Part shown: positions 2,767 to 4,835 of the stretch, one piece after another
Numbering within the stretch: the stretch's first letter is position 1
Layout of the letters: each line of letters opens with the position of its first letter
Source of the DNA: a virus
Strand: one strand, 5' to 3'
Length of the DNA stretch: 50,871 bases
Virus record (IMG/VR): IMGVR_UViG_3300025860_000019
Location: 1-50,871 of that record
Program-made: the position numbers and the translations under genes
Notes under the pieces: generated by a model
What the model was told of the DNA's origin: nothing
The model's database searches: none
Seen by the model: only the letters and a program-made list of their open reading frames with translations

Positions 2767-2913
2767 TCAGACAAAAGACTTAAAAAGAGGGGAAAGCAGA
2801 AATCCCTTAAACAAATAGAAGCTTAGAGCTACATGAAATCATCTGTAAAATAGATTGACACTTTCACAAAAAGAAGAAGTGCTGATGTAGAAGTAATAAC
2901 AAACAGTAAAATT
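2767..2913 (+). ncRNA. Putative structured RNA with three-way junction
   Basis: CTACAT (2829-2834) pairs with ATGTAG (2885-2890) and encloses two hairpins, ATCT/AGAT and CACTT/AAGTG. A separate hairpin (AAGAGGGG.../TCCCTT) precedes it near 2779-2802. The string 'gagctacatg' is shared with the RNA at 5982-6081. No coding frame is present and no class is recognised. Confidence 0.35.
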
Positions 2914-3003
2914 AAACTCTCATCCAATTGCAGGGCATGGATTACCAAGCAGTAAAAGTTCTACAGGATAGAGCCAAGGTGCAACCTTGTGGGAGTTTTT
3001 AAT
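2914..3003 (+). ncRNA. Kissing-loop RNA element, copy 1
   Basis: The closing stem AAACTCTC (2914-2921) pairs with GGGAGTTT (2991-2998, one G-U) and is followed by T residues. Hairpin 1 is ATCCA/TGGAT with TTGCA in its loop. The last hairpin is CAAGG/CCTTG with loop TGCAA, which is exactly complementary to TTGCA, so a loop-loop kissing contact is predicted. The element at 5615-5705 repeats the design. This suggests a defined RNA class (cis element or small RNA) that I cannot name; the T tail would allow termination. Confidence 0.5.
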
Positions 3004-3487
3004 ATAATAGTGTAAGATGTTGGGCTCATAATTTGACACAACTATTAATATAGGTTAAACATTGAAACCTTTGTGAATTAACCTCGGTCCTGAATAAGGA
3101 TAAAACCGTGGTCAATGTTCACATAAAGATACTAATCCTGAATTGACAGGAAGAAGATTATAGTCACTTAGATGATTATATACCAAGGAGTAATCCTAGA
3201 GTGTTGTTCCCTTGAGAAAGGAATACCTAGTGCCATGTTTTAGAACTAGTGTGAAAACTAATTCCTCTGCATTAGAACACAAATGAGTTCTCAGCAAGTA
3301 GTTATTAATAATAAAGCCTAAAGTCCTGGCGGATATATTGAAATCTTTAGGTATAACTACGCTACCCTACTCTTATTAGTAAAAAAATTAAAGACAGTTG
3401 GGCAGACAACCTGCACTAATAAGAAAGAGGGTTATAAATCCTATACACGTAGAGAATATTGTATAGGATTACTAAATAATATTTAAA
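2999..3487. other. Structured non-coding stretch upstream of the tmRNA
   Basis: No coding frame. Several strong inverted repeats: CCTAAAG/CTTTAGG (3317-3323/3345-3351); a long interrupted stem from 3357 to 3452 (CTACG/CGTAG, ACCCT/AGGGT, then CTTATTAGT/ACTAATAAG); and AATCCTATAC/GTATAGGATT (3437-3446/3461-3470). The apex of the long stem contains GTTG/CAAC with GCAG in its loop complementary to the following CTGC, an H-type pseudoknot. This may be the 5' part of the tmRNA acceptor segment, an intron-like RNA, or an independent RNA. Strings resembling group I intron core elements are present but not convincing. Confidence 0.4.
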
Positions 3488-3738
3488 AAGCAGTAACCTG
3501 CTAAGTTAATTGCTAATATATTAGGACGAGGGTTCGATTCCCTCCATCTCCACAATAATACGTTTAAAAAGTAAACAATCCGTAAGTCTTTACAGAGCAT
3601 GGTCTGTTATTTGGGGATGACTGGTATTGACTGTATAATATAGTAGATTAAATAGGGTTATAGCAACCAATAACTGGAAAAGTTATTAATATGTTTGGAC
3701 AACCTCAGCTTAGAGCTGTAGCATAACCAACGTTTCTT
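3488..3738 (+). ncRNA. ssrA: Circularly permuted (two-piece) tmRNA
   Basis: The conserved tmRNA 3' end comes first: GGACGAGGG-TTCGATT-CCCTC then CATCTCC-A (3524-3552). It is preceded by a pseudoknot (AGCAG/CTGCT at 3489-3502, with its TAAC loop complementary to GTTA at 3505). About 60 bases later comes the tmRNA 5' end, GGGGATG-ACTGGTATTGAC (3613-3631). GGGGATG pairs with CATCTCC over 7 bp with one G-U. Downstream, a hairpin AATAAC/GTTATT precedes a short frame (3691-3726) ending GQPQLRAVA-stop, resembling a degradation tag with a small hydrophobic C-terminus. The gene order (acceptor piece, intervening segment, coding piece) is that of permuted two-piece tmRNAs. Exact processed ends and the resume codon are inferred. 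Confidence 0.85.
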
Positions 3739-3739
3739 A

Positions 3740-3764
3740 GGGTGTACGACAACACCCTTTTTTA
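3740..3764 (+). terminator. Rho-independent terminator after tmRNA
   Basis: GGGTGT (3740-3745) pairs with ACACCC (3752-3757), followed by TTTTTTATTTT. It marks the 3' end of the permuted tmRNA transcript. Confidence 0.85.
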
Positions 3765-3799
3765 TTTTAAAACAACATTAACAATATAAAACTAATAAG

Positions 3800-4435
3800 A
3801 TGAAACTGAAATGTAAAGTAATAATGTTACCTACAAATGATTTAACATTTATAAGATTTAACAAATCTTTAAATATTATATCACCTGATATAAGTGATTA
3901 TGGTGTTAAAGTAAATAATTATATAAGTTGTCAACACCTCTACATCACTTCAGATGATGAAATTAAAGAAAGTGATTGGGTTTATAACAAAGTTCAAAAA
4001 ACAGTTTTCAAAGCTGATGCATCATTTATGAAATTAATAGGTAATAGTTTATCTACTAATCATAAAATAATAGCAACTACTGATAAATCTTTATTAAGTA
4101 GTAATTCTATACCTCATCCAAGAGGAGGTAATAGTAAACAAATGGTAGGTACACTACCTCAACCATCACAAGCATTTATTGAGAAGTATTGTAAAGAAGG
4201 TGATATTGATGAAGTGTTGGTTGAGTATGAAAGAATAGATACTTATCATAAAACGTTGGATGGTAGTAGCTGGGGAAAATTAATACCTAAAGTAGATTCA
4301 CATAATACTATTACTATTCATTCAATTAAAAATAGTTGGAACAGGGAAGAAGTGATAGAATTATGTAAAACTGCTGCTAATGACTATGTAGAAATCATAA
4401 CTAATGAAGCTAATTGGATTAAAGAAAACTTATAA
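3800..4435 (+). CDS. Conserved phage protein of unknown function, 211 aa
   Basis: Soluble alpha/beta protein. Recognisable blocks are HLYITSDDEIKESDWV (about 47-62), IIATTDKSL (about 91-99), LPQPSQAFIEKYC (about 119-131) and a C-terminal SIKNSWNREEVIELC helix. This combination is one I associate with hypothetical proteins recurring in phages of Bacteroidota, usually near the small-gene region; the function is unknown. No catalytic motif stands out. It starts 36 bases after the tmRNA terminator, so it likely has its own promoter or leader there. Confidence 0.75.
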   Translation: MKLKCKVIMLPTNDLTFIRFNKSLNIISPDISDYGVKVNNYISCQHLYITSDDEIKESDWVYNKVQKTVFKADASFMKLIGNSLSTNHKIIATTDKSLLSSNSIPHPRGGNSKQMVGTLPQPSQAFIEKYCKEGDIDEVLVEYERIDTYHKTLDGSSWGKLIPKVDSHNTITIHSIKNSWNREEVIELCKTAANDYVEIITNEANWIKENL

Positions 4436-4620: not shown

Positions 4621-4835
4621 CAACAGAAACAATTATATTAATAACTTGGTTTTTAGCAGGTTTAATAGCTGCATTATTAGTAATAAATGATATGAAAGAA
4701 GATATTAAAATTAAAGATATCTTACCAGCATTATTATTTGTAATTCTTGGTTATTTAACATTGATAGCTACAATAATAGCACTTGCAGTAAAAAATAGTG
4801 ATGTAGTAATATGGAAACATCCTAAAAACAGATAA
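4617..4835 (+). CDS. Small two-helix membrane protein, 72 aa
   Basis: Two hydrophobic segments (about 4-23 and 35-59) flank a charged loop (NDMKEDIKIKD); the tail is basic. It overlaps the preceding stop by four bases. It resembles the 78-aa membrane protein at 2115 in length, topology and helix starts. Candidate roles are membrane insertion or lysis control; neither is shown. Confidence 0.6.
   Translation: MTTETIILITWFLAGLIAALLVINDMKEDIKIKDILPALLFVILGYLTLIATIIALAVKNSDVVIWKHPKNR

Follow-up and report, generated by a model that had tools for sequence, protein, structure and literature searches.

Circularly permuted tmRNA of a crAss-like phage and related genes in phages of Bacteroidota

A permuted tmRNA gene in a fragment of a crAss-like phage

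The analysed stretch of DNA (50,871 nucleotides, hereafter the window) is a 50.9-kb virus record representing a fragment of a phage genome. We could confirm that it carries a genuine circularly permuted tmRNA gene, located at positions 3494-3757 on the + strand, in a crAss-like phage. The permuted Rfam covariance model, proposed as a check in the preliminary description, matched well above its threshold (RF04321, tmRNA_permuted, positions 3502-3726, 60.3 bits for a cut-off of 47, E = 2.8e-9 with cmscan, and 6.5e-11 when only a short stretch was scanned). ARAGORN independently reported a tmRNA* in permuted form at 3463-3817 with the tag GKVINMFGQPQLRAVA. A standard-order gene at this locus was rejected: the standard model RF00023 covered the 3' half only, with 31.3 of the 47 bits required, and thus gave no support for such an order. 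None of the alpha, beta and cyano subtype models (RF01849, RF01850, and RF01851) reached its cut-off within the window. The features of the locus are the following:

3437-3470, + strand: perfect hairpin of 11 bp with loop CGTAGAGAATAT, upstream of the tmRNA
3494-3524, + strand: 3' strand of the P2 stem, in the acceptor piece, pairing with 3631-3660
3524-3552 (G3524-A3552), + strand: 3' half from the T arm to A73 (model match and covariation)
3553-3612, + strand: intervening segment of 60 nt between the halves, predicted to be excised from the precursor
3613-3631, + strand: start of the 5' half, with acceptor GGGGATG, D-arm analogue and first P2 base C3631
3631-3660, + strand: 5' strand of the P2 stem, in the coding piece (pairing test across 16 phage loci)
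3676-3726, + strand: tag frame GKVINMFGQPQLRAVA with stop codon TAA at 3724-3726 (ARAGORN and relatives)
3731-3763, + strand: post-tag hairpin GGGTGT/ACACCC (3740-3757) and T run (recurring in relatives)

The permuted order and the pairing of the two acceptor halves, both read from the letters alone in the preliminary description, were recovered: the T arm and acceptor strand run to A3552 and, after the 60-nt spacer, GGGGATG begins at 3613. The T arm GAGGG-TTCGATT-CCCTC (3528-3544) has a loop of the TTCGA type and is followed by the acceptor 3' strand CATCTCC (3545-3551) and the discriminator A73 (3552); CCA is not encoded after A73, the sequence there being CAA. The 5' half opens with GGGGATG-ACTGGTATTGAC, and its acceptor strand (3613-3619) forms with 3545-3551 a 7-bp stem whose pairs are all standard and include the alanine identity pair G3-U70. 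The D-arm analogue, ACTGGTATTGA, reads TATTGAC where TTTTGAC or TTTCGAC is usual, and a long P2 stem takes the place of an anticodon arm. The 3' strand of P2 consists of TAACCT, a six-base bulge GCTAAG, TTAATT, and GCTAATATATTAG.

The resume codon GGA is preceded by AATAACT, a context conserved in relatives. The tag-like frame ending in LRAVA and the terminator behind it were also borne out, with the stop codon at 3724-3726 and a hairpin with T run at 3740-3763. The hairpin loop ACG (3746-3748) could pair with CGT (3731-3733), giving a possible small pseudoknot 3' of the tag; the hairpin and a CGT/ACG or CGC/GCG pairing are also present in L079, L063, and L096, so that this 3-bp pairing occurs at four loci in total. 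Between P2 and the tag, the permuted model expects a hairpin or pseudoknot that the window lacks, as seen from gaps in the alignment; P2 ends 15 nt before the resume codon, which leaves no room for a pseudoknot ahead of the tag. Neither did we find the pseudoknot that had been described before the 3' half; that region is occupied by the 11-bp hairpin (3437-3470) and, at 3494-3524, by the P2 3' strand. This hairpin perhaps serves precursor processing or marks the end of an upstream RNA; comparable hairpins, with other stems, occur around the permuted tmRNA of G008, a relative introduced below.

Covariation between the two halves

We aligned 16 permuted tmRNA sequences from phage loci. Acceptor stem pairing was found in 100% of the cells, a result partly conditioned by the fact that some 5' halves were recognised through acceptor complementarity; P2 played no part in the selection. 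Position 5 of the acceptor occurs as CG, GC, AU, and UA, positions 6 and 7 show two pair types each, and G3-U70 is invariant (16/16). In two phages, U-A replaces C-G as the first P2 pair. In all, we counted 29 cells with double changes versus 9.1 in shuffles (0 of 500), and the signal disappeared when the partner was slid by 1-3 columns. P2 exceeds the length given in the model, its helices lying on either side of a six-base bulge that is conserved and reads GCTAAG here. Its mean pairing energy was -16.1 kcal/mol with the true partners and -10.9 kcal/mol with shuffled ones (sd 0.72), none of 20,000 shuffles equalling the former. The covariation test in relatives, suggested beforehand, thus gave a strong signal for both stems, and at the level of the aligned sequences it shows selection across the permuted group.

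The carrier phage and its close relatives

The carrier can be assigned to Crassvirales as judged from its shared replication genes. Its DNA polymerase is 57% and its primase 43% identical to those of Cellulophaga phage phi14:2 (Crassvirales, Steigviridae, Asinivirinae), which is the nearest isolate in terms of the polymerase; the order of the primase, thymidylate synthase, and further replication genes also matches that in phi14:2. This relatedness makes a host in Bacteroidota likely. Two side observations concern the DNA polymerase gene, which additional DNA splits in L006 (4361-7262), a near-identical relative, and which had to be joined from two pieces in phi14:2 (L058 9636-12081); both interruptions are probably an intron or inserted element.

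Among the close relatives of the window, one has a permuted tmRNA and four have a standard one (phi14:2, G007, G009, and G012), all five being related by DNA polymerase, and one lacks the core. The permuted one, in the phi14:2 relative G008, has a 340-nt spacer and was missed by the Rfam search. The core-less one, L112, has flanks nearly identical to those of the window and continuous with each other, 237 bases corresponding to the tmRNA core (window 3501-3737) being missing; the gene is therefore dispensable. In phi14:2 and G012, the standard tmRNA is located downstream of the phrog_15656 gene, and in the window and G008 the permuted one is on its upstream side; from these opposite sides we conclude that the two forms were probably gained separately in this phage group. 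Permutation in place of the phi14:2 gene was set aside for the same reason, since the standard tmRNAs lie across phrog_15656 and so probably occupy a different locus.

A separate conserved structured RNA of about 400 nt adjoins the tmRNA on its upstream side (window 3050-3440, + strand). An exact 28-mer from it, ACACAAATGAGTTCTCAGCAAGTAGTTA, was present in 51 IMG/VR contigs, corresponding to 46 non-redundant stretches including the window. It exhibits conserved blocks, recurrent long-range helices, and double changes at ten predicted pairs, and the window copy has a fold z of -3.4. It had no match in Rfam, whether to a group I intron or to a known large RNA, and its class is unassigned there; it is possibly more novel than the tmRNA itself. 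tmRNA genes were found nearby in 8 of the 51 loci. In L112 (4728-4802), the region corresponding to window 2800-3469, which contains this RNA, is replaced by 43 nt; as the tmRNA core is missing too, a clean junction is left at 4801/4802.

Distribution among phages and hosts

Relatives were sought by blast, pattern scans, and covariance searches. The preliminary description knew of no permuted tmRNA in phages of Bacteroidota, a statement that does not hold, as such genes are present in GenBank records of several of these phages and in many IMG/VR contigs. The same order, which it had proposed to look for in related phages, was found in G008, in the isolated Chryseobacterium phage MA9V-3 (69.5% over 195 bases compared to the window) and in seven Suoliviridae crAss-like phages (cr50_1, cr10_1, cr114_1, cr125_1, cr53_1, cr52_1, and cr273_1). 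Further carriers were about ten IMG/VR contigs, a contig binned with an archaeon and one Bacteroidota genome. GenBank annotates a tmRNA in MA9V-3, cr50_1, cr10_1, cr114_1, and cr125_1 with its form unstated, and the record of cr53_1 has no annotation of it. RF01850 matched only partially (40.7 bits in MA9V-3 and 28.5 in cr10_1, of 84). The spacer between the halves ranged from 41 to 340 nt among relatives and was longer in the Suoliviridae phages than in the window. Seven of 20 loci, versus 2 expected, had a TAnnTTTG promoter 30-50 bases 5' of the T arm; the window has none at that position.

Within a panel of 18 further records picked by primase, two carried a permuted tmRNA (cr52_1 and cr273_1), one a damaged-looking gene (cr118_1) and one a weak standard ARAGORN match (cr106_1); the rest of this panel, including crAss001, crAss002, DAC15, and crAssphage LMMB, gave no clear tmRNA match. 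The cr118_1 locus (L140 1350-1750, - strand) retains the 5' half and the tag frame and lacks the T arm before the acceptor strand; it is apparently a decayed or altered permuted tmRNA.

Several loci had features of their own. The intervening segment of cr114_1 contains a tRNA-His gene (L100 1565-1637); one earlier case of a tRNA gene so placed is on record, in a tmRNA nominally from an archaeon (PMC11915505). Near the permuted tmRNAs of cr50_1 and cr10_1 there are RAGATH-22, Hatchet ribozyme, and RAGATH-9 RNAs (L003 1859-2025; L004 147-273 and 1126-1304). The contig binned as a Woesearchaeota genome (L071 4396-4840) has a permuted tmRNA with the Bacteroidota-like tag GNTTPTRMAA and is probably a misbinned phage contig.

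Only one of 395 Bacteroidota genomes was above the permuted cut-off, in a search whose stricter filters may miss weak copies. This single copy lies near genes for a DnaB-like helicase, a DNA polymerase, and an exonuclease of phage families, and its genome has its own standard tmRNA elsewhere. We thus rejected a host-borne permuted tmRNA: the sole copy above the cut-off sits in a phage-like region beside a standard gene, and the permuted form looks phage-borne in Bacteroidota. Three further weak matches in Bacteroidota genomes were standard tmRNAs, as were the loci that the genome scan had picked in Bacteroidales and Marinilabiliales, which met the pattern by chance.

Tags and resume sites

The tag frame was intact in 19 of the 20 permuted loci, with 10-17 codons, a Gly as first residue in 17 loci and often an AATAACT-like context before the resume codon. 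The last residue is Ala in 17 of the 19 tags and Val in two, the C-terminal sequences otherwise differing between phages; many end in R-x-[AV]-[AV], RAVA in the window. The tag expected in cells infected with MA9V-3 is GNVIDINKYVAKLEVAA. The Bacteroidota standard tmRNA tags compared (GENNYALAA, GENNFALAA, and GEDNYALAA) are shorter, different in sequence and end in YALAA or FALAA. Given the terminal Ala or Val, the simplest reading is a degradation tag: with its small nonpolar C terminus, the tag predicted in the window resembles ordinary ones. As a separate observation, the standard tmRNAs of phi14:2, G009, and Calle_1 (L058 4031-4500, L062 1501-1901, and L104 1172-1531) appear by eye to have very long tags of ~30-41 residues, such as GNDTDNTQLKANMTVVHNILNGSDALIGSSVQKLAMVA, for which ARAGORN gives shorter ones.

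Proposed function and alternative explanations

The order, structure, covariation, tag, and distribution described above, together with signatures of the host type (Gly resume codon, no encoded CCA, and a short D-arm analogue), lead us to consider the locus as a working permuted ssrA gene, whose two-piece tmRNA would use the host SmpB and tag proteins for proteolysis (probability of about 0.83). For processing, charging, SmpB use, and the benefit to the phage, we infer the following course. Transcription would yield a single precursor that opens with the acceptor part, made up of the P2 3' strand, the T arm, and the 3' strand of the acceptor, and continues with the coding part, which comprises the 5' strand of the acceptor, the D-arm analogue, the P2 5' strand, and the tag. 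Host RNase P would generate the 5' end at G3613 and host nucleases would trim the 3' end to A3552, the 60-nt intervening segment being lost; CCA, not being encoded, would need to be added by the host. In the Caulobacter two-piece tmRNA, tRNA-processing enzymes cut a single precursor, according to the accounts that cite the original work (Keiler et al. 2000, cited in PMC9004378 and PMC11915505), and the window precursor may by analogy be processed into two pieces. These would be held together via the acceptor stem and the long P2 stem, and alanine would be loaded through G3-U70. Host SmpB would bring the RNA to stalled ribosomes, no smpB gene having been found within the window; translation would resume at GGA and add GKVINMFGQPQLRAVA, and the tagged protein would be released and sent to proteases. 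During infection, this would probably provide extra rescue and clearance when mRNA breakdown and heavy translation give many non-stop complexes. The marine two-piece phage tmRNAs have been proposed to sustain the hijacked machinery or to recycle host proteins (PMC9004378).

Three points speak against a working gene: the TATTGAC variant, the missing hairpin or pseudoknot before the tag and the loss of the core in L112. That loss, the apparent break in cr118_1 where the T arm is missing and the patchy distribution would fit a non-functional remnant of a gene acquired by a phage ancestor; we consider this improbable, as the stems, G3-U70, A73, and tag are all intact in the window and the covariation shows selection across the group. 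The AT-rich sequence and the metagenomic origin of several carrier contigs might raise the suspicion of a chance resemblance or of an assembly artefact joining two halves, to which the E-value of 2.8e-9, the covariation, and the many independent contigs leave a practically negligible probability; the occurrence of the same order in the isolated MA9V-3 and in other complete records refutes it.

The other alternatives concern what the RNA does. It might act as a decoy, its tRNA-like domain binding host SmpB, AlaRS or ribosomes and dampening trans-translation, with tagging incidental: phage DS6A is reported to have an RNA limited to the tRNA-like domain, and host tmRNA is inhibited by a molecule similar to it (PMC4131195). 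A decoy would have no need for a tag frame, a resume context, and a nonpolar C terminus, all of which are kept in 19 divergent loci, and we give this explanation little credence. Redirected tagging, by which the tagged proteins would survive or reach another protease because the phage tag differs from that of the host, seems unlikely to us though worth bearing in mind. The greater length of the phage tags, their dissimilarity to GENNYALAA, and the frequent R-x-[AV]-[AV] ends in place of YALAA or FALAA speak for it; against it, the terminal Ala or Val is that of ordinary degradation tags, and the C termini vary. We retain the working two-piece tmRNA with a degradation tag as the preferred explanation.

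Origin of the permuted form

Three features unite the standard tmRNAs of Bacteroidota with the majority of the permuted phage group: a shorter D-arm analogue containing TTTGA, the absence of an encoded CCA, and a tag starting with Gly. The permuted phage copies of alpha- and beta-like type lack them. Such a pattern would be expected if a gene of the Bacteroidota type had been permuted separately, and equally if a permuted gene had been acquired and had become adapted to the SmpB and processing of Bacteroidota. In a tree based on about 66 aligned bases, the alpha- and beta-like permuted copies grouped together (0.92) and the phage and host forms of Bacteroidota were intermingled, an alignment of this length being insufficient to decide on the origin. 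Shared features noticed by eye, such as a GTTGA bulge in P2, could speak for a common ancestry with the beta-type permuted genes. That the permutation arose once more, independently, within Bacteroidota phages whose hosts keep the standard form is thus a tentative proposal, to which we give somewhat less than even odds.

As far as tested, this permuted group is confined to phages of Bacteroidota, including crAss-like phages of the human gut. If it is a separate one, phages would maintain or even invent a two-piece architecture beside hosts with a standard gene. Permuted, standard, and missing tmRNAs occur in related phages, some of them isolated, so that cost and benefit can be tested within one group. 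Trans-translation would also be a function that phages carry repeatedly, in a group that is among the most abundant of the human gut.

Comparison with known systems

Permuted tmRNAs have been described in Alphaproteobacteria, Betaproteobacteria, and Cyanobacteria (PMC11915505) and, in phages, mostly from aquatic samples. A search of open papers on crAss, Crassvirales or Bacteroidetes and tmRNA gave no mention of the permuted form in these phages. RefSeq viruses are covered by the tmRNA database of 2025, which has 79 sequences from phages, and some of the present genes may therefore be listed there. The permuted form is thus known, and the group in Bacteroidota phages is apparently undescribed so far.

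The window resembles the alpha, beta, and cyano permuted tmRNAs (RF04321; RF01849, RF01850, and RF01851) in gene order, intervening segment, tag frame, acceptor and P2 pairing between the pieces, and G3-U70. The alpha- and beta-like phage copies compared have TTCGA or ATCGA, a longer D-arm analogue, an encoded CCA, and Ala-first tags, whereas in the group of the window TTTGA or ATTGA predominates, the D-arm analogue is shorter, CCA is not encoded, and tags begin with Gly. The two-piece tmRNAs of marine phages (Melnitz and pelagimyophages; PMC9004378) are likewise phage-borne and permuted but of the alphaproteobacterial type and associated with a glutamine riboswitch, whereas the window has the Bacteroidota type and the Rfam scan gave no riboswitch match in it. 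The standard tmRNA of Bacteroidota shares the short D-arm analogue with TTTTGAC, the lack of an encoded CCA, and the Gly resume codon, but has the normal order, about 395 nt, a long middle region, and short tags. The standard tmRNAs of the phi14:2 group belong to related phages, lie in the same part of the genome and have a resume context like AAACGGAAA, but are in normal order, across phrog_15656, with tags that are very long by eye. The tmRNAs of MA9V-3, cr50_1, cr10_1, cr114_1, and cr125_1 have the same permuted architecture as that of the window, with different tags.
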